Positions 24,447 to 49,864 of a DNA stretch of 64,000 bases are shown one piece after another. Position numbers and translations under genes: made by a program. Under the pieces are notes generated by a model. It saw nothing but the letters and a program-made list of their open reading frames with translations. It was not told the DNA's origin and did no database searches. Source of the stretch: Mesorhizobium sp. (GTDB lineage: Bacteria > Pseudomonadota > Alphaproteobacteria > Rhizobiales > Rhizobiaceae); assembly GCA_004020875.1 (NCBI GenBank), contig SAPZ01000002.1, positions 487,226-551,225 on the forward strand, written 5' to 3'. How positions within the stretch are numbered: the stretch's first letter is position 1; each line of letters begins with the position of its first letter.

Positions 24447-25466
24447 ATGCCTTCCCTGTTCGACATTTTTGCCCAAGCCCAGAATGGCGCCGGCATGCAG
24501 GCGCTGGCCCAGCAATATGGGCTTTCGATGCAGCAGACGCAGGCCGCGGTCCAGGCGCTGCTGCCCGCCTTCTCGCAGGGGCTCCAGCGCAACACCGCCG
24601 ACCCCTACGGGATGGGCGCCTTCATGACAGCGATGGCGAGTGGGCAGCACGCCAAATATTTCGAGGATGCGACAAGGGCCTTTTCGCCGCAAGGCATCGA
24701 TGAGGGCAACGGCATTCTCGGCCATCTGTTCGGCTCGAAGGACCTGTCGCGCGCCGTGGCGAACCAGGCCGCGCAGGCGACGGGGCTCAGCCAGCAGGTG
24801 CTGCAGCAGATGCTGCCGGCCATGGCCTCGATGATGATGGGCGGGCTGTTCAAGCAGACCAACAATCAATTGACCGGGGGGCAGATGCAGGCCGGCGGTT
24901 TCGGCGGCACCGGCAATCCGCTCGGCGAAATCATCGAGCAGATGATGCGGCAGGGCGGTCTCGCGCCGTCACCGCAAACGCGGCAGGCGCCGGCGCCCAA
25001 TCCTTATGGCGAGAATCCGCTCGGCAAGGTGCTGCAGGACATGTTCGGCGGAGGTGCGGCGCAGCCGCAAGGTCAACCACAGCAGGCGCCCAATCCCTAT
25101 GGCGAGAACCCGCTTGGCAAGGTGCTGCAGGATATGTTCGGCGGCGGCGCGCAGTCGCAAGGCCTGCCCCAGCAGACGCAAAGCCCCTATGGCGACAATC
25201 CGCTCGGCAAAATCTTCGAGGAGATGTTGCGCCAGGGCGGCGGCTTCGGCGTGCCGGGCGGGCAGACGGCGCCGCAGCCGCAACAGCGCCAGCCGCAGCA
25301 GAGCGCGCCGCAACAGCCGCAGACCAACCCGAGCGGCCGGCCGCGAAATCCCTTCGACGACATCTTCGGCAAGATGTTCGAGACGGGCGCGCAGCAGCGC
25401 GACGAATATGAGAAGAGTGTCGGCACGATCTTCGACCAGTTCAAGCGCGACATGGATCGGCGGTAG
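24447..25466 (+). CDS. DUF937 domain protein with C-terminal tandem repeats
   Basis: A 339-residue protein. Residues 1-140 match DUF937 (LAQQYGLSMQQTQAAVQALLPAF, then GNGILGHLFGSKDLSRAVANQ), a helical family near YidB whose function is unknown. Residues about 155-290 are low in complexity. They contain four versions of a unit NPYGENPLGKVLQDMFGGG, two of them identical over 19 residues, joined by Gln/Pro-rich linkers. GGAGGAGACC lies just before the ATG at 24447. The repeats suggest slippage-driven variation in length. Confidence 0.8.
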   Translation: MPSLFDIFAQAQNGAGMQALAQQYGLSMQQTQAAVQALLPAFSQGLQRNTADPYGMGAFMTAMASGQHAKYFEDATRAFSPQGIDEGNGILGHLFGSKDLSRAVANQAAQATGLSQQVLQQMLPAMASMMMGGLFKQTNNQLTGGQMQAGGFGGTGNPLGEIIEQMMRQGGLAPSPQTRQAPAPNPYGENPLGKVLQDMFGGGAAQPQGQPQQAPNPYGENPLGKVLQDMFGGGAQSQGLPQQTQSPYGDNPLGKIFEEMLRQGGGFGVPGGQTAPQPQQRQPQQSAPQQPQTNPSGRPRNPFDDIFGKMFETGAQQRDEYEKSVGTIFDQFKRDMDRR

Positions 25467-40998: not shown

Positions 40999-42282
40999 AT
41001 GCCGGAATTTTCATTTACGTCGTCCAGTCCCGGCGCCTGGCGTGATGCGCCATGGCACCGCGCCTGGCTCACGAAGCAGGCAGATATCCTGTTCGACCTT
41101 TTCGATCCGGCCGCCGTCAACCCGCGGGGCGGCTTCTTCGATCTCGATCCAACAGGCAAGCCGCTGCCGGGCAAAGCCGTCAGGCCAATCCACACCACTG
41201 CCCGGGCCGTCCATTGCTACGTCATCGCCAGTCTGCTCGGTCGGCCGGGAAGTGACCGCATGATCGACCATGGAATGCAGTATCTCTGGCACTGCCATCG
41301 CGATGCAAAGCATGGCGGCTACATGTGGTCGCTCGACGACGACGGGCCCAAAGACACCACCAAACAGGGTTATGGCCACGCCTTTGTGCTGCTTGCCGCG
41401 TCAAGCGCGAAGCTGGTGGGCCACCCTTTGGCCGACGGGATGCTGGCAGACGTCACGACGACCCTGAACGAGCGGTTTTGGGAAGAGCAGCACGGCGCCA
41501 TAGCCGAAGAGTTCGAGCGCGACTGGGCGCCGACGCGCGGCTATCGCGGCCAGAATTCCAACATGCACCTGACCGAGGCATTGATGGCCGCCTATGAGGC
41601 GACCGCCGATCAGGAATACCTGCGCAAGGCGGAGCGCATTGCGGACCTGATCATCAACCGCCGTGCCCGCGAGTGCGATTTTCGTGTCGCCGAGCATTTC
41701 GATGAGCAGTGGGCAATCGACCGTTCCTACAGGGCGGTCAACGAGATGTTTCGTCCGTCGGGGACGACGCCGGGTCATTGGCTCGAGTGGGCGAGGCTGG
41801 CCCTGCAGCTGTGGGTGCTGGGCGGCAAAAAGCACGACTGGATGCCGGAAGCCGCGGAGATGCTGTTTCGGCGCTCCGTGGAACTGGCATGGGATGGAAC
41901 CAAAGGCGGCTTTTTCTACACCCTCGACTGGGCTGACAAGCCGTCGTTCCGCTTCAAACCCTGGTGGCCGATTGCCGAGGCCGCGGGTGCTGCCTCATTC
42001 CTGGCGGAGCATCGCCCAAGCGCCTTCCATGAAGAATGGTACCGGCGCATCTGGAATACCATCGCCGAGGTCTATATCGACCGCGAGCATGGCGGATGGT
42101 TCGAAGAACTGGATGAGGACCTGCAGCCGGCGCATTCGCTGTTTGTCGGCAAAGCCGACTTGTACCACGCCCTTCAGGCCTGCCTGATACCGCTTTATCC
42201 GGCGCAGGGGAGCCTGACGAACATGATTCGTCAATGTTATGACGCTTCCACCGCGAAGGCTTCCATAGACGGCGACGTGTAA
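40999..42282 (+). CDS. AGE-family epimerase/isomerase (aldose-ketose type)
   Basis: A 427-residue (alpha/alpha)6-barrel protein of the N-acylglucosamine 2-epimerase family. Conserved blocks are RAVHCYVIASLLG, YGHAFVLLAASS, NSNMHLTEALMAAYEAT (the active-site His/Glu helix) and TTPGHWLEWARLALQLW (a second active-site His). It is closer in look to the YihS/mannose-isomerase branch than to true N-acetylglucosamine epimerase. The substrate is unknown. It lies 167 bases after the hydrolase gene and is followed by tRNA-His on the other strand, so it may be a separate unit. Confidence 0.87.
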   Translation: MPEFSFTSSSPGAWRDAPWHRAWLTKQADILFDLFDPAAVNPRGGFFDLDPTGKPLPGKAVRPIHTTARAVHCYVIASLLGRPGSDRMIDHGMQYLWHCHRDAKHGGYMWSLDDDGPKDTTKQGYGHAFVLLAASSAKLVGHPLADGMLADVTTTLNERFWEEQHGAIAEEFERDWAPTRGYRGQNSNMHLTEALMAAYEATADQEYLRKAERIADLIINRRARECDFRVAEHFDEQWAIDRSYRAVNEMFRPSGTTPGHWLEWARLALQLWVLGGKKHDWMPEAAEMLFRRSVELAWDGTKGGFFYTLDWADKPSFRFKPWWPIAEAAGAASFLAEHRPSAFHEEWYRRIWNTIAEVYIDREHGGWFEELDEDLQPAHSLFVGKADLYHALQACLIPLYPAQGSLTNMIRQCYDASTAKASIDGDV

Positions 42283-42492
42283 ATTCGGGTTCGAAAAGTG
42301 CGCGATTTAAGGAAATCAACACATTAGCAGGCAGGCAGCGACCAAGATCGTGCTCTTCGCGCTTTCGTACCTGCCATCCGTTTTGCACCACAATAGGGCA
42401 CAATTTGTGAGGCAAATTGCAAGCAGACACGAAGCTTACAATCGAACTGCCCGATTTAAATCGAACAACCAGCCGCTTATGCGAGAAGGTGA

Positions 42493-42569
42493 TGGTACCG
42501 TTGGCTGGGCTCGAACCAGCGACCCCCAGATCCACAATCTGGTGCTCTAACCAACTGAGCTACAACGGC
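42493..42569 (-). tRNA. tRNA-His (GTG)
   Basis: A 77-nt cloverleaf. The acceptor arm starts GCCGTTG and pairs with CAACGGT. The D arm contains AGCTCAGTTGG, the anticodon arm is CCAGA-TTGTGGA-TCTGG with GTG at 42535-42533, and the T arm contains GGTTCGAGCCC. CCA is encoded. The base before position 1 is T, not G, and the discriminator is A. This matches the unusual alphaproteobacterial tRNA-His, which lacks the G(-1) found elsewhere. Confidence 0.95.
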
Positions 42570-42910
42570 ACGCCTGCCTGAACTGGATCAAGGTGAAAGC
42601 TTCCTCTCCGTGATCCGCTCTGTCTTTCGGCGATGCGTCCAATACGGGCTATCGGATTCTAATTCAAGGCCCTTAATAAGGCAAAGGACTGTTGTCCTCG
42701 TCGGACCTGTCATAAGCAAAAGAAAAGGCCGGCGGGAGGAGGTGCCGGCCTTTTCCTGTTACGAGCCAGCGGGAGGAGGTGCTGGCTGGTCACCCCGGAA
42801 ACGGAGGGAGGAGGTTCCATTCCCGGGTATCTGATTGTTCAACCCTATCGCATAACTATTTGTCTGACGAAATGCGACGTTTTGATGCATCGCAGGGTTG
42901 TGCGAGAAAA
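42570..42910. other. gap between tRNA-His and the phasin gene, containing a CCUCCUCC-loop small RNA
   Basis: A 341-bp non-coding stretch. The three-hairpin RNA at about 42712-42835 is its main content. The section 42836-42910 holds the 3' end of the phasin transcript and probably the small RNA promoter. No protein gene is seen. Confidence 0.65.
42712..42835 (-). ncRNA. cuckoo/CcsR-type small RNA with three ACCTCCTCCC loops
   Basis: Read on the minus strand there are three hairpins in a row, each with the identical loop ACCTCCTCCC. They are 42827-42793 (CCGGG-type stem), 42787-42764 (stem AGCCAGC/GCTGGCT) and 42754-42723 (stem AAAAGGCCGGC/GCCGGCCTTTT). The last is followed by CTTTTGC and acts as terminator. 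The cuckoo RNA family of alphaproteobacteria, including Rhodobacter CcsR RNAs, is defined by CCUCCUCCC loops that can pair with Shine-Dalgarno sequences. The RNA begins about 75 bases after the phasin stop and may be processed from that transcript or have its own promoter. Confidence 0.8.
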
Positions 42911-43378
42911 TTAGGCGGCCTTGACGTCCTTCATCGCCTTCTCGAAGGCGCTCTTGATCGGCTTGGAGACATCCTCGGCCGCCTTGGTGGCTGCGGCCTG
43001 AAACTCCTTGGCCTGCTCCACGGCCATTTCGGCGCGCTTGCGCAGGAAAGCGGTCTGCAATTCGACGACTTCCGAAAGGGTCTTGGCGCCGACCAGGGCT
43101 TCAAGATGCGAGAAGCCGGCTTCGGCATTGGCGCGCAGCGCTGCGATCGTCTTGAGCGAAACGTCGCTGGAGACGGCCTTGGCGGTCTCGTAGGTCGACT
43201 CCAGAACCTTCTGGGTCTCCTCGGCGCCGGTCTTCAGCTTGGCATAGGCCTCTTTCGACTGCTCGACGCCCTTCTCGGCAAAGGCGCGGATCTGGTCGGT
43301 GGCCTTGGAAGCGTCAAAGCTCGGGAATTCAACGTTTTCGATGGTCTCGGCAGCGGTCTTCGCGGTGGTCTTGGACAT
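42911..43378 (-). CDS. phaP: phasin (PHB granule-associated protein)
   Basis: A 155-residue phasin that coats polyhydroxybutyrate granules. It starts MSKTTAKTAAETIENVEFPSF. An amphipathic helical body of the phasin_2 type follows: QIRAFAEKGVEQSKEAYAK, then SLKTIAALRANAEAGFSHL and AEMAVEQAKEFQAAA. The composition is rich in Ala, Lys and Glu, with no membrane segment. The ATG at 43378 gives the family start; the longer frame is not conserved. It is divergent from cbrA. In S. meliloti, from memory, phaP1 has the same neighbour. Confidence 0.92.
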   Translation of the reverse strand: MSKTTAKTAAETIENVEFPSFDASKATDQIRAFAEKGVEQSKEAYAKLKTGAEETQKVLESTYETAKAVSSDVSLKTIAALRANAEAGFSHLEALVGAKTLSEVVELQTAFLRKRAEMAVEQAKEFQAAATKAAEDVSKPIKSAFEKAMKDVKAA

Positions 43379-43449
43379 TTTCCAACCTTTTCGGGATAGC
43401 GGCTTTGACAGAAAGCCGTCTCGTTCATGTATGGTGGCAGTATAGAGAA

Positions 43450-43490
43450 CTTTTTTGTGCATCGCAACATCTTTGTTGCACTGCACCATA
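43450..43490. promoter_or_regulatory. candidate PhaR operator pair in the phaP promoter
   Basis: Two TGC-N3-GCA sites, TGCATCGCA (43458-43466) and TGCACTGCA (43477-43485), sit 19 bases apart, 80-107 bases upstream of the phasin start. PhaR/AniA repressors of PHB metabolism bind TGC(N3-4)GCA motifs. Repeated occurrence in the right promoter supports the call. Confidence 0.5.
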
Positions 43491-43621
43491 AAATCTTCCC
43501 TGACGGCAACCGTAACGTCAGTCCTGGGCCGTTAACCAAGAGCCCAGAGATTTCGACCTATGCAAGCCAAGGCTTGTGGACCTTCGGACCGCGGGCTTTT
43601 ATTAACAAAGCGTTAACTGAA

Positions 43622-46600
43622 ATGCCGCTCCGGAGGGTTGCCCAGCGCATGCCGCCTGAAAACTACTCCTTCCTCGACGTCGCCGTGCTCGACGCGGTGC
43701 GCCAGCGCTTTGCCGCCGGAGACGCCCTGACCATTTTGTCAGCCGACCTCGAGCAGGTGATCTGGGCGAACGGACCGGGGGCATCGGTGTTCGGCTATCC
43801 GGATATCGAGGCCATAATCGGCGCGTCGGCGCGGCTGCCGCTGATTGCCAGGCGGCAGATCATGGCGACCAGCGGTTTTCCCGAGATTGGCAACGACCGC
43901 GCCATCACGGTGAGACTGGCGACGGGCATGGTGAGCCGGGCAGTGGGTTTCCTGGCCAGCGCCGTGACGATGCCGGACGGCGAGAAGGCAATCATGCTGG
44001 CGGTGCCGGCGGCGCAGACCAGTTCACGCAGCGCCGGCGAGATTGCCAGCCGCGCCATCGGCGGTTTCACGGAGGCAGGCCATTTCATCGCCTTCATCGA
44101 CGCGCAGGGCGATGTCGAGGCGGCTTCGGACGGCTTCGCAGCGCTCGGCATCGAGCCGCGGACCCTGGCTGCGCTGGTAGCGGATGTCGCAAGCAGCGGC
44201 GACCGTGTCGTGAAGCGCCTCGTACCTGGCAGCAGCACTTCGTACCCGGCCGGTTTCGCCCGGCTCACCGACACGCGGCACCTGCTGGTGGTCATCGATG
44301 AGGACCAGCTCGACGGCGATCAAAGCGAACAGCCGGCCGCCGGCCAGGGCGATCGGACCCATGACGAGCAAGTCGCGGCGCCAGGCACCGTGGCGGCCAC
44401 GCTGTCGGGTGAAAGCCTGACCGCCGAGCCCGAACCCCGGCCGGTCCAGGACAACAGCCCCGCGCCGGCCTTGACGGCTGGCGAACAGGCCAAGCTGGTC
44501 CCGGAGCCCTCTGAAGGCGATGCACAGACTGACGCTGTAAGCCGGACCAATCATCAGGCGAATGCCGCCGAGCCCAGCCAACAGGCCGCCGGCCCCGAGG
44601 CCATGGACGTCGGCGCCGGCCACCACGACCGTTGGTATTTCAACGCCGGGGACGATGACGCCGTGCAGGCTCTACCGGCAGTGCCGGCGAAGAATGTGCC
44701 GAAGGAAGCTGTCGCGGCCGAAGGCCTGCGTCGGGGTATTGGCGAGACGGCGGCGCGCGAAACCGTCACGCCGTCGCAGCCAGCCCTGCCCCGCGCCATC
44801 GACCGCTCGGCGCCACCTTTGCGCTTCGTCTGGCGCACCGACGCCGAAGGCAAATTCAGCGCGTTGTCGCCCGAGTTCGCAGACATCGTCGGCCAGCCCG
44901 CCGCCGATGTGATCGGCCGCCGCTTCAAGGACGTCGCCACCACTTTCGGCCTCGACGTCTCGGGTGAGATCGCCGGTCTGCTCGAACGGCGCGACACCTG
45001 GTCAGGCCGATCGGTTCTGTGGCCGGTGGCCGGAACCGATCTCAAGATACCGGTCGATCTGGCGGCGTTGCCCGTCTATGGCCGCAGCCGTGCTTTCGAG
45101 GGTTTTCGCGGCTTCGGCGTCGCGCGTAGCGCCGACGCCGTGACCGATCCGGAGGCGCTCGGCATGGCGCTGGTGCCTAATGCCGCGCCTGCCGGGAGCG
45201 AGCCGTCGGTCGAGCAGCCAGCCGCAGAGCAGGCGAAGCCGGAGCAGCCAAAGCCCGAAGATCCATTCCAGGGCGAAGTGCCGGCGCTGAGCATCGTGCC
45301 GAAGCCGGAGCGGCGCTTCGCCGACAAGGTAATAAGGCTGGCCGAGCATCGTCAGTCGGCCAACGACAAGCAGCCGGGGAGCGACACGCCCGCAAGTCAG
45401 AGGAGCCTGTCGATCCTCGAGCGCAGCGCGTTCCGCGAGATCGGCGAGCGGCTGCGCAAGGATAGTTCCCTGCCTGCCGAGCCGCGCGCCGCCGAAGCCG
45501 GCAAGCAGATCGATGCGGTTGTTGCCGGCAAGGACGAGGCAACAGCGAAGGAGGCCGAGGCAAACCAGCCAACGACGCTTGAAGCGGCGCCGGACGAGAA
45601 CCCCGCGCTGGAGTCGACGCCGGCACCCGCGCCGGAAGCCTCGGAAACGGCGGACGCGAAGGCCGACGCGGAGACCGCGGAAGCACAGACCGAGGCGGAA
45701 GACCAGGAAGACTTGGCAAGGCTCGACGGTATCGATGACGCCGCCGCGACGGACGACATCGGCCGGACCGGGACGCCGGCCGCTTCCGGCTCGCTGCTCA
45801 GCTACGCCGATGGTGAGAAATCCGGGGAAGAAGCCGGCGTCGAACCTGCTTCCGAGGACAGCCAGGCAGTGGTCGCCCGTCAGGCGACCGAGCGTGCCGA
45901 TGCCGAGCCGCGGCAGCCGGACGAACGGCCCGTCGCCGAAGAGCCGGCGCGCGATGCGACGGCGGACGACGACAGCATGACCGCCGACGATTTCCGCGAT
46001 GCGGAAGACAGCGAGGATTGGGCAGACTCCGACGTCGACGCGGGGACGGCCGCGGAAGAACCGGAAACGGTAACGCCGGCGCGGCCACGGCTGAACGTGC
46101 CGCCACTCAAGCTCGCAGGCTTTGTGCCCTCCGCTTTTTCGACCGGAGAAGAAGCCAAAGCGCCCGATACGTCCATCCTCGCCAGGCTGCCGGTGCCGCT
46201 GCTCATCCATTCGGGCGACGAGCTCCATTACGCCAATGATGCCTTCCTCGAACTCACCGGCTACGATGCGTTGGAAGACCTAGTGGATGCGGGGGGCCTG
46301 GGCGCGTTGTTTGCCGATCCCTATGCCGAAGATGCCACCGCGGACGAAAGCGACCACTCGCTGAAGCTCAAGAGCTGCCAGGGTCAGGAGTTTCCGATCG
46401 AAGCCCTTCTTCGCTCCGTGCCGTGGCGGGGCGGCAAGGCGCTGATGCTGGTGGTGCGGCGCTCCGGCGAGGACGATGCGGCGCATCTCACCGCCGCCAA
46501 AGACGAACCGGCGCTGCAGCCAGACGTGCCGGAATTGAAATCGCGCATCGCCGAGATGCGCACCATCATCGACACCGCCACGGACGGCGTCGTGCTGATC

Positions 46601-47653
46601 GGCCGCGACGGCAACATCCGTTCGATCAGCCGGCCTGCGGAAGCTCTTTTCGGTTTCGACAGCGACGAGGTCGCCGGCAAACCCTTTGCCTCGCTGTTCG
46701 CCATCGAAAGCCAGCGCGCCGCGCGCGACTATCTCGCGGGCCTCTCGGAGCCGGGCGTCGCGAGCGTCTTGAATGACGGCCGCGAGGTCATCGGCCGCGA
46801 GGCGCAGGGGCGTTTCATCCCGCTGTTCATGACCATCGGCAGGCTGCCCAACGACAGCGGCTTCTGCGCCGTGGTGCGCGACATCACGCAATGGAAGCGA
46901 GCCGAGGAAGACCTGACGCAGGCACGCGCGGTTGCCGAGCGCGCCTCCTCGCAGAAGACCGATTTCCTGGCCCGCATCAGCCACGAGATCCGCACGCCGC
47001 TCAACGCCATCATCGGTTTTTCCGAGCTGATGGTGGACGAGAAATTCGGTCCGATCGCCAACGACCGCTATCGCGACTACCTGCGTGATATCAACCGGTC
47101 AGGCAATCACGTGCTCGATCTGGTCAACGATCTGCTCGACATCTCCAAGATCGAGGCCGGCCAGCAGGAGATGGATTACGAGGCGGTGTCGCTCAACGAC
47201 ACGCTGGCCGAGACTGTGGCGATGATGCAGCCGCAGGCCAATCGCGAGCGCGTCATCATCCGCTCCAGCTTCGCCTCGCGGCTGCCGGAAGTGGTGGCGG
47301 ATTTGCGAAGCGTGCGCCAGATCGCCCTCAACATCCTGTCCAACGCCATCCGCTACACCCAGGCCGGCGGCCAGGTGATCGTCTCGACCGCTTACGAAGC
47401 CTCAGGCGATGTCGTCATGCGCGTGCGCGATACTGGCATCGGCATGACTCCGGCCGAGATCGAGCAGGCGCTGAAACCGTTCAAGCAGATCAATGCGCTG
47501 AAGCGCGGACGCGGCGACGGAACGGGGCTTGGCCTGCCCCTCACCAAGGCCATGGTGGAGGCGAACCGCGCCCGCTTCGCCATCACCTCGACGCCAGGCG
47601 AAGGGACCCTGGTCGAGGTCGCCTTCCCTTCGACGCGCGTGCTTGCCGAATAA
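43622..47653 (+). CDS. cbrA: CbrA-type PAS sensor histidine kinase
   Basis: A protein of about 1343 residues with no clear membrane segment. Several PAS-like regions occur (about 30-100, 400-500, 860-950 and 970-1085, e.g. TDGVVLIGRDGNIRSIS). Between about 220-390 and 540-850 lie long acidic, Ala/Glu/Pro-rich linkers. The kinase core has SHEIRTPLNAIIGFSELM with the phospho-acceptor His1121, a NILSNAIRY N box, DTGIGM and GTGLGLPLTKAM. In S. meliloti CbrA affects the DivK/CtrA cell-cycle pathway and is needed for symbiosis. The ATG at 43622 is assumed; the frame is open further upstream. It is divergent from phaP. Confidence 0.88.
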   Translation: MPLRRVAQRMPPENYSFLDVAVLDAVRQRFAAGDALTILSADLEQVIWANGPGASVFGYPDIEAIIGASARLPLIARRQIMATSGFPEIGNDRAITVRLATGMVSRAVGFLASAVTMPDGEKAIMLAVPAAQTSSRSAGEIASRAIGGFTEAGHFIAFIDAQGDVEAASDGFAALGIEPRTLAALVADVASSGDRVVKRLVPGSSTSYPAGFARLTDTRHLLVVIDEDQLDGDQSEQPAAGQGDRTHDEQVAAPGTVAATLSGESLTAEPEPRPVQDNSPAPALTAGEQAKLVPEPSEGDAQTDAVSRTNHQANAAEPSQQAAGPEAMDVGAGHHDRWYFNAGDDDAVQALPAVPAKNVPKEAVAAEGLRRGIGETAARETVTPSQPALPRAIDRSAPPLRFVWRTDAEGKFSALSPEFADIVGQPAADVIGRRFKDVATTFGLDVSGEIAGLLERRDTWSGRSVLWPVAGTDLKIPVDLAALPVYGRSRAFEGFRGFGVARSADAVTDPEALGMALVPNAAPAGSEPSVEQPAAEQAKPEQPKPEDPFQGEVPALSIVPKPERRFADKVIRLAEHRQSANDKQPGSDTPASQRSLSILERSAFREIGERLRKDSSLPAEPRAAEAGKQIDAVVAGKDEATAKEAEANQPTTLEAAPDENPALESTPAPAPEASETADAKADAETAEAQTEAEDQEDLARLDGIDDAAATDDIGRTGTPAASGSLLSYADGEKSGEEAGVEPASEDSQAVVARQATERADAEPRQPDERPVAEEPARDATADDDSMTADDFRDAEDSEDWADSDVDAGTAAEEPETVTPARPRLNVPPLKLAGFVPSAFSTGEEAKAPDTSILARLPVPLLIHSGDELHYANDAFLELTGYDALEDLVDAGGLGALFADPYAEDATADESDHSLKLKSCQGQEFPIEALLRSVPWRGGKALMLVVRRSGEDDAAHLTAAKDEPALQPDVPELKSRIAEMRTIIDTATDGVVLIGRDGNIRSISRPAEALFGFDSDEVAGKPFASLFAIESQRAARDYLAGLSEPGVASVLNDGREVIGREAQGRFIPLFMTIGRLPNDSGFCAVVRDITQWKRAEEDLTQARAVAERASSQKTDFLARISHEIRTPLNAIIGFSELMVDEKFGPIANDRYRDYLRDINRSGNHVLDLVNDLLDISKIEAGQQEMDYEAVSLNDTLAETVAMMQPQANRERVIIRSSFASRLPEVVADLRSVRQIALNILSNAIRYTQAGGQVIVSTAYEASGDVVMRVRDTGIGMTPAEIEQALKPFKQINALKRGRGDGTGLGLPLTKAMVEANRARFAITSTPGEGTLVEVAFPSTRVLAE

Positions 47654-47905: not shown

Positions 47906-49864
47906 TCAGCCCGCTAGCTGCGGCAGGTCGCGGAACAGTTCCAGCGCTTCCGGGTTTGCAAGCGCTTCCTTGTTCTTCACGGCCCGGCCGTGAACCACGT
48001 CGCGCACCGCAAGTTCGGTGATCTTGCCGGATTTCGTGCGCGGGATGTCGGTGACGGCGACGATCCTGGCCGGCACGTGACGCGGGCTGGCGCCGGAGCG
48101 GATCCTGGCGCGGATGCGCTTTTCCAAATCCTCGCTGAGGCTCACGTCGGCTGCCAGCCGCACGAACAGCACGACGCGCACGTCATTGTCGAAGTCCTGG
48201 CCGATGCAGAGCGCCTCAAGGATCTCCGGCATCTGCTCGACCTGGTTATAGATCTCGGCCGTGCCGATCCTGACGCCGCCCGGATTGAGCGTTGCGTCCG
48301 AGCGGCCGTGGATAATCATGCCGCCATGGGACGTCCATTCGGCGAAGTCGCCATGGCACCAGACATTGTCGAAACGCTCGAAATAGGCCGCGTGATACTT
48401 CTTCCCCTCCGGGTCGTTCCAGAAGCCGATCGGCATCGACGGGAAGGCCTTGGCGCAGACAAGCTCTCCCTTCTCCTGCCGGATCGGCTTGCCGTCATCA
48501 TCCCACACGTCGACCGCCAGGCCGAGACCAGGTCCCTGGATTTCCCCGGTCCAGACCGGCTCGGTCGGCACGCCGAGCACGAAGCAGGACACGATGTCGG
48601 TGCCGCCCGAGATCGAGGCCAGATGCACGTCCTTCTTGATGCTGTCATAGACGAAGCGGAAATCCTCTGGCGACAGCGGCGAGCCTGTGGAGGAGATAGT
48701 GCGCACGCTCGACAGATCGTGGCTCGCGATCGGCTTCAGACCGGCCTTGCGAACGGAATCGATGAACTTGGCCGAGGTGCCGAAGTAGGTCATCTGCTCG
48801 GCATCGGCGAAATCGAACAGCACATTGCCGTCAGGGTAGAAAGGCGAACCGTCATAAAGCAAAAGCGTAGCGCCCGAGGCGAGGCCCGAGACCAGCCAAT
48901 TCCACATCATCCAGCCGCAGGTGGTGAAATAGAACAGGCGATCGCCGTCGAGCAGGCCGGCATGCAGGCGATGCTCCTTCACGTGCTGGACCAGCGTGCC
49001 GCCGGCCGAGTGCACGATGCATTTCGGGATGCCGGTCGTGCCCGAGGAGAACAGGATGTAGAGCGGATGCGCGAAGGGTAGCCGCTCGAAGCTGACCTTC
49101 CTGGCAGCAAAGGGCGAGAGCGCCTCTTCGAGCGCGGCCGCCCTGTCGATTGTGGCGGCGACGTCCTGAGAGGTGCCGAGATAATCGACGATCAGCACCT
49201 TGCGGACGCTCGCGAGTTTCTCGGCCACGGCGCGGACCTTGTCAGCCACCTCGATCGCCTTGCCGTTGTACCAATAGCCGTCCGGCGCGATGAAGACGAC
49301 CGGTTCGATCTGGCCGAAGCGGTCGAGCACGCCCTGCTCGCCGAAATCGGGAGAGCATGATGACCAGACCGCGCCGATAGAGCTTGCCGCCAGCATCGCC
49401 GCGATCGTTTCGGGCATATTCGGCATCATGGCGGCGATGCGGTCGCCGGCCTTGACACCAAGCGATAGGAAAAGCTGCTGCAGCCGCGAGGTCAGCGCAT
49501 GGAGCTCGTTCCAGGAGAGCCTGCGCTCGACCTTGTCCTCGCCGCGAAAGACGATGGCCGGACCGTTGCCGGTTTTCTGCAAAAGGTTCTCGGCGAAGTT
49601 GAGCCTGGCGTCGGGGAAGAAGCTGGCGCCGGGCATGCGCTCGCCGTCGACAAGGTTCCGCTCACCCTTTTCGCCGACAAGATTGCAGAAATCCCAGACC
49701 AGGCTCCAGAAGGCGCCTCGATCCTCGACCGACCAGCGGTGAAGTTCCGCGTAGCTTGAGAAAGCCTCCCCGGCTTTTGCTGCCGCGGCTTTCATGAACG
49801 CGGTTAATGGCGCCGCATCGATCCGCTCCTGCGTCGGGGTCCACAAAGGTGTGTCGGCGGCCAT
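47906..49864 (-). CDS. acsA2: acetoacetate-CoA ligase (acetoacetyl-CoA synthetase)
   Basis: A 652-residue ANL-family ligase of the acetoacetyl-CoA synthetase type, using ATP to join acetoacetate and CoA. It has the family opening TPLWTPTQERIDAA, the P-loop ILFSSGTTGIPKCIVH near 268-283 and CGWMMWNWLVSGLASGATLLLYDG. GSDATLNPGGVRIGTAEIY and TKSGKITELAVRDVVHG carry the hinge and catalytic lysine. It returns acetoacetate from PHB breakdown to central metabolism, in keeping with the nearby phasin gene. The ATG at 49864 has GGAG just upstream. It is convergent with cbrA. Confidence 0.93.
   Translation of the reverse strand: MAADTPLWTPTQERIDAAPLTAFMKAAAAKAGEAFSSYAELHRWSVEDRGAFWSLVWDFCNLVGEKGERNLVDGERMPGASFFPDARLNFAENLLQKTGNGPAIVFRGEDKVERRLSWNELHALTSRLQQLFLSLGVKAGDRIAAMMPNMPETIAAMLAASSIGAVWSSCSPDFGEQGVLDRFGQIEPVVFIAPDGYWYNGKAIEVADKVRAVAEKLASVRKVLIVDYLGTSQDVAATIDRAAALEEALSPFAARKVSFERLPFAHPLYILFSSGTTGIPKCIVHSAGGTLVQHVKEHRLHAGLLDGDRLFYFTTCGWMMWNWLVSGLASGATLLLYDGSPFYPDGNVLFDFADAEQMTYFGTSAKFIDSVRKAGLKPIASHDLSSVRTISSTGSPLSPEDFRFVYDSIKKDVHLASISGGTDIVSCFVLGVPTEPVWTGEIQGPGLGLAVDVWDDDGKPIRQEKGELVCAKAFPSMPIGFWNDPEGKKYHAAYFERFDNVWCHGDFAEWTSHGGMIIHGRSDATLNPGGVRIGTAEIYNQVEQMPEILEALCIGQDFDNDVRVVLFVRLAADVSLSEDLEKRIRARIRSGASPRHVPARIVAVTDIPRTKSGKITELAVRDVVHGRAVKNKEALANPEALELFRDLPQLAG

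Follow-up and report, generated by a model that had tools for sequence, protein, structure and literature searches.

An ar14-family three-hairpin RNA behind the phasin gene phaP in Mesorhizobium and related genera

RNAs of the ar14 family are described as having three hairpins whose stems vary and whose anti-Shine-Dalgarno loops are identical (PMC10746234, PMC3927594, PMC7143759; these papers, PMC10253847 and PMC5596092 are cited from excerpts). In S. meliloti, the three loops of NfeR1 (Smr14C2, RF02344) are redundant anti-Shine-Dalgarno seeds that pair with the translation-start region of ntrB, and the RNA is made from a dedicated sigma-70 promoter carrying an LsrB and an NtrC box (PMC10746234). 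SmelA075 and SmelA099 have three or four hairpins with CCUCCUCCC loops and occur in several copies per genome, with a microsynteny that is fragmented according to Reinkensmeier 2011 (PMC3927594), in whose main text the words phasin and phaP are absent. A PHB-controlling small RNA with an anti-Shine-Dalgarno loop, MmgR (ar8), is already known from S. meliloti (PMC7143759). MmgR is 77 nt long and belongs to a separate family. In Rhodobacter, the RNA RS0680a belongs with the CcsR RNAs, whose operon lies behind an RpoHI/RpoHII promoter. Anti-Shine-Dalgarno loops have been described for RS0680a (PMC3927594), and CcsR1-4/CIN1 of Rhodobacter sphaeroides form the 3' part of a protein-gene transcript, being co-transcribed with a DUF1127 gene (PMC10253847).

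The RNA described here lies in a 64-kb stretch of Mesorhizobium DNA (the window). A sequence-only reading had proposed three successive hairpins of cuckoo/CcsR type downstream of a phasin gene and had left the strand unstated; we place the RNA on the minus strand, and the neighbouring gene upstream of it indeed matches Pfam Phasin_2. The features of the locus are as follows.

42911-43378, minus strand: phaP, phasin gene ahead of the RNA (Phasin_2, PF09361, E 2.1e-14), with the start set at 43378, where homology begins (MSKTTAK)
42718-42833, minus strand: three-hairpin small RNA of ar14/NfeR1 type (Rfam RF02344, 69.9 bits against a cut-off of 58.8, model 1-123 complete)
42794-42827, minus strand: hairpin 1, with loop ACCUCCUCCC at 42815-42806 and the most variable stem (predicted fold)
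42764-42787, minus strand: hairpin 2, with loop ACCUCCUCCC (predicted fold)
42720-42757, minus strand: hairpin 3, with loop ACCUCCUCCC and a 3' arm leading into a U-rich tail (predicted fold)
42496-42569, minus strand: tRNA-His(GTG), which anchors the phaP-RNA locus on its downstream side (Rfam)

The predicted fold of 42835-42712 has stems of 12, 7 and 14 pairs, different in sequence and each closed by an apical loop of exactly ACCUCCUCCC, as had been noticed from the sequence. Its minimum free energy is -58.5 kcal/mol (z -6.4), and none of 200 dinucleotide shuffles was equally stable. The 9-mer CCTCCTCCC occurs three times in the window against 0.73 expected, a count reached by 3 of 100 shuffles, and all three copies lie within a span of at most 81 bases, each inside an apical loop. 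The last stem had been read as a terminator, and the modelled hairpin 3 is terminator-like, being G+C-rich with a 3' arm that continues into the U-rich UUUUCUUUU; it is likely an intrinsic terminator, and probably one common to the RNA and phaP. A terminator scan of 42600-43600, which admits only loops of 3-8 bases and cannot see longer ones, reported no terminator-like site.

The match to the covariance model, a search that the sequence-only reading had suggested, identifies the RNA as a member of the known ar14 family (NfeR1/"cuckoo") and not a new kind of RNA. The window copy resembles NfeR1 in its length, in its three hairpins, in having CCUCCUCCC unpaired in all loops and in stems that are free to vary; some distant phaP-linked copies show the CCUCCUCCC loops only in part. 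It differs from NfeR1 in lying behind phaP and in having another conserved dyad upstream (TGC-N11-GCA), where a promoter scan reports no consensus promoter, and the phaP-linked RNAs of most other carrier genera lack room for an intergenic promoter altogether. The cuckoo half of the proposed type thus stands, and membership of CcsR is not supported, because a CcsR RNA shares its transcript with a DUF1127 gene and the neighbours here are phaP and tRNA-His; a motif scan of 42282-43500 shows no DUF1127-like frame, and the RNA carries three hairpins within one molecule behind a phasin host gene, unlike CcsR1-4/CIN1.

The genome contains five ar14 matches, four of them above the cut-off, and the window copy is the one behind phaP. 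Two others stand in tandem behind two small DUF1127 genes and form a CIN1-like locus (L001/L002; L001 is G000:C50:51542-54663), and another (L003) sits between genes for LacI-type and TetR-type regulators. Close pairs or triplets of ar14 matches are also seen in many Mesorhizobium genomes. Within the window, the only matches at the Rfam gathering level are tRNA and ar14, a search that covers ar8 only if that family is modelled in Rfam. The phaP-linked copy could be silent, since only one of six ar14 copies in S. meliloti was reliably detected by Northern blot (PMC7143759).

The linkage to phaP extends throughout the genus. All 61 Mesorhizobium genomes searched have phaP, and at least one exact loop motif follows the chromosomal gene in 61/61 loci. 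In the main clade, the first motif lies 92-102 nt past the phaP stop codon and three exact motifs are present in 52 of 53 loci, the 53rd having two in a sequence that ends 171 nt past the stop; in eight divergent Mesorhizobium loci the number of exact motifs is between one and three and their spacing differs. No exact motif was found within 330 nt of nine phasin paralogues, which are only nine of the further phaP matches. Among the best 80 of 170 related loci, the closest of them 96% identical, 78 have three motifs and the other two stop at a contig edge; these 80 largely overlap the 61-genome set, and the place of the motifs is unchecked for L234 and L274.

Across the family, phaP is present in 99 of 131 genomes, and in other genera an exact motif follows it in 35 of 88 loci (the nine weakest matches among 97 phaP genomes were left out, and L111 was dropped as its genome was already counted). 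The motif is concentrated in the loci with the closest phaP (at least 177 tblastn bits), where it is present in 33 of 40 with none exact in the other seven; the remaining 48 loci contribute two. Spacing is short in 33 of the 35, with the first motif 29-50 nt past the stop (69 and 80 nt in the other two), and the RNA as placed by Rfam starts roughly 10-30 nt past the stop (e.g. L113, L117, L121). Twenty of the 35 were given to Rfam, and 17 of these pass the ar14 cut-off. The truncated sequence L046 was removed from alignments.

In 31 of 37 scanned loci, some of them lacking the RNA, phaP has a tRNA-His gene as its neighbour, indicating that the locus is the same and that the RNA was gained or lost inside it. 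A quick tree of phaP, rooted at its midpoint, comprises 110 rows; 39 of the 53 rows of the main clade and all nine paralogues were omitted from it, and 52 of its 107 inner branches are weak. An exact motif is present in 57 of 69 rows on one side of the root and 0 of 41 on the other, and rows with a long spacer nest among short-spacer rows; L095 is labelled long-spacer there, though the first of its hairpins, whose loop has decayed, is close to phaP. The presence and absence of the RNA require 13 changes on this tree and gain or loss was therefore repeated, with the direction of change in spacer and RNA suggested, not proven. We found no description of a phaP-linked ar14 RNA in a literature search judged by title or abstract start, with most subscription journals outside its scope; the interest lies in the phasin linkage and the 3'-end arrangement across genera, the kind of RNA being already known.

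Comparison of these loci bears on the proposal that the loops are under selection. Across 52 Mesorhizobium rows the loops never change and pairing holds in 98% of pair cells, with changes on both sides at 6 of 37 pairs against 1-3 in slid controls; hairpin 1 has 30 distinct stem sequences among these rows and hairpin 2 has three. A set of 21 rows (the window copy, three divergent members of the genus and 17 loci of other genera) was picked for three exact loops, so that loop conservation is given by construction and pairing alone is informative: 87% of cells pair against 40-60% in slid controls, and both sides have changed at 24 of 37 pairs against 7-16. An anti-Shine-Dalgarno RNA of the cuckoo kind is supported, with loops that stay fixed on changing stems in the main clade. 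The opposite pattern, stems kept with loops lost, had been named as a refutation; it occurs in the middle hairpin of L088 and L089 (divergent Mesorhizobium) and of L121 and L125 (another genus), and not in the main clade.

Two further features on the minus strand bear on how the RNA might be made.

43439-43467, minus strand: phaP promoter-like site TTGCGA-17-TATACT (promoter scan), overlapping a PhaR-type operator TGCGATGCACAA at 43455-43466
42872-42890, minus strand: dyad of 19 bp, ATGCAWCAAAASGTCGCAT, conserved in the spacer that separates the RNA from the phaP stop (dyad scan), a candidate regulator or promoter element

The promoter scan of 42600-43600 gave two promoter-like sites against 0.2 expected; one is the phaP promoter, the sole consensus promoter upstream of the RNA on its strand, and the second lies downstream of the RNA. 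The region upstream of phaP is conserved in 53 aligned loci; the PhaR consensus is TGCRNYGCASMA (PMC6201568). A conserved TGC-rich stretch in these loci, TGCAGTGCAACAAAGATGTTGCGATGCACAAAA (43452-43488, minus strand), resembles a paired PhaR-type operator. In the short-spacer genera, the gap behind phaP leaves no room for a promoter, so that either the phasin mRNA ends in this RNA or a transcription start lies within the phasin coding sequence. As a sign of a promoter hidden in the end of phaP, codon entropy over the last 20 codons was compared with the rest of the gene: it is 0.45 (from nine codons that could be used) against 0.76 in the genera that bear the RNA, and 0.39 against 0.45 in Mesorhizobium, with too few codons to decide.

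We consider it probable that this ar14 member forms the 3' end of the phaP transcription unit, with anti-Shine-Dalgarno loops that act in trans and an output that tracks PHB, and that the cell may thus make the phasin gene product and the RNA together. Transcription from the phaP promoter would meet no evident terminator before the hairpins and would stop at hairpin 3, after which the RNA would be freed by processing of the phaP transcript; in Mesorhizobium, an additional supply could come from a promoter of its own at the dyad. The three ACCUCCUCCC loops would pair interchangeably with the Shine-Dalgarno regions of targets and block translation, as demonstrated for NfeR1, and by analogy with the family the phaP-linked copy would repress its targets through redundant loop seeds. 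PhaR senses PHB, and because phaP is controlled by PhaR in related bacteria, we infer that RNA output would follow PHB status.

An alternative is that in Mesorhizobium this is a stand-alone ar14 gene with its own promoter and with the dyad as a regulator site, the phaP neighbourhood reflecting synteny only, which we regard as unlikely. The main-clade spacer is some 60 nt longer than that of short-spacer genera, and the conserved dyad within it, which lies 39-57 nt ahead of the RNA, argues for independent transcription in Mesorhizobium. The dyad has a 7-5-7 architecture, and a scan that allows three mismatches recovers it from 52 of the 53 loci of the main clade. Although the 240 nt behind phaP average 73% identity across 52 genomes, the block ATGCAWCAAAASGTCGCATTT within them hardly varies; it is followed, at a position that would suit a -10 element, by an invariant T and AT (TATGAT in one subgroup), and the TGC-N11-GCA spacing is that of the NtrC motif at the nfeR1 promoter (PMC10746234). 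Against this, the scan finds no consensus sigma-70 promoter at the dyad, and the spacing TGCA-N10-GCAT differs from the TGCA-N6-GCAT of the nfeR1 LsrB box (PMC10746234). The block is absent with at most five mismatches from all eight divergent loci of the genus, all 88 other-genus loci and all nine paralogues, and so cannot drive the RNA in the divergent or the other-genus loci. A dyad regulon was rejected, as no second copy with at most two mismatches exists in the genome; five sites appear at three mismatches, against two for a reversed control. PhaR was likewise rejected as regulator of the dyad: in the window TGCGATGCATCA differs from the 12-mer consensus at one position, but orthologues do not conserve its left part. 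Three loci with another long spacer (L091, L092, L093) show by eye a CTTGTA-N17-CTAGCT-like spacing before the RNA, a possible separate promoter. For MH_s15 of M. huakuii, considered as a candidate for this RNA, no tie to the locus could be established from the excerpt (PMC5596092).

It is also conceivable, if improbable, that the structure serves solely as terminator and 3' stabiliser of the phaP mRNA, with loops that are family remnants and have no role in trans here. Hairpin 3 has the character of a terminator, and the relatives L153, L129, L142 and L088 retain such a hairpin with one or more, or all, of the loop motifs gone; however, termination does not need three identical 10-base loops, and all 52 untruncated loci of the main clade keep the motifs exact, with 30 forms of the hairpin-1 stem. 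Least probable of all, to the point that we give it little weight, is a CcsR-type RNA with loops that serve chiefly to bind a protein, for example a DUF1127 (CcaF1-like) product. A possible partner exists, since the genome has the CIN1-like locus, but the scanned surroundings of the RNA encode no such frame and the seeds of NfeR1 have been shown to act by pairing (PMC10746234).

If the phaP-linked RNA acts in trans as we favour, its targets might be sought among genes with complementary start regions, near which the sequence-only reading had already suggested looking, and one further gene of the window is relevant here.

47909-49864, minus strand: acsA2, for acetoacetate--CoA ligase (TIGR01217); the enzyme is associated with the use of PHB, and its gene lies a few kb away from phaP

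The frame singled out earlier as DUF937, a name for which NCBIfam gave no match, has GGAGGAG (7/9 bases) before its ATG at 24447, and GGGAGGAGG has no copy elsewhere in the window. The best site among 42 hand-picked window genes, six of which reach -13 kcal/mol or lower, is that of acsA2, with GGGAGGAG before the start codon (-15.5); in its orthologues (20/20 genomes) the site ranges from -8.5 to -15.5 and so varies within the genus. The sites of phaP itself (-5.3) and of a second phaC are weak. In 30 of 30 loci read from 41 genomes searched, GGGAGG stands ahead of the phaR start and GGAGGA ahead of the phaC1 start (GGGAGGA in 27 of 30), with predicted loop pairing of -10.7 to -14.2 kcal/mol. 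In 30 chosen other genomes, taking the best of several possible starts, the phaC median is -11.7 with the phaP-linked RNA and -11.2 without it (-12 or lower in 7 against 5; 15 genomes each, with one locus, L368, in which no start was found counted as 0), and the phaR median is -13.2 against -12.6 (10 against 10; 14 and 15 loci). Because complementarity barely differs with or without the RNA, there is no clear co-evolution of these sites with it, and no particular target, PHB-related or other, is supported for the phaP-linked RNA. The suggested link to PHB is strengthened as a matter of gene arrangement. As a lead only, exact GGGAGGAGG-N3-9-ATG occurs nine times in the genome against none for a reversed control; seven of the nine sites open a frame of more than 100 aa, and several of these frames, by reading without a family search, resemble sugar-transporter or carbon-metabolism genes.

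A more far-reaching version of the favoured reading, which we put forward tentatively and think somewhat doubtful, is that over one large part of the family the phasin mRNA has two functions, encoding the coat protein of the PHB granule and releasing a cuckoo-type RNA from its 3' end. As PHB accumulates, PhaR would leave the phaP promoter, and the coat and a broad anti-Shine-Dalgarno repressor would appear together, coupling carbon storage to the translation of transport and carbon-metabolism genes; a second promoter, under separate control, would later have been inserted ahead of the RNA in Mesorhizobium. A genome holds several ar14/cuckoo RNAs, of which few have a known signal; one that has become fixed after phaP in many genera can be placed in a definite metabolic setting, the storage of PHB, a process of importance in nodules. 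The favoured reading predicts that the level of the RNA should follow phaP and PhaR, and the locus provides a natural set of cases for how an RNA at a 3' end could acquire a promoter of its own.

Divergent from phaP, a 1408-aa frame at 43427-47653 on the plus strand contains PAS, HisKA and HATPase_c domains; its listed start overlaps the phaP promoter, and the true start is therefore probably further in.
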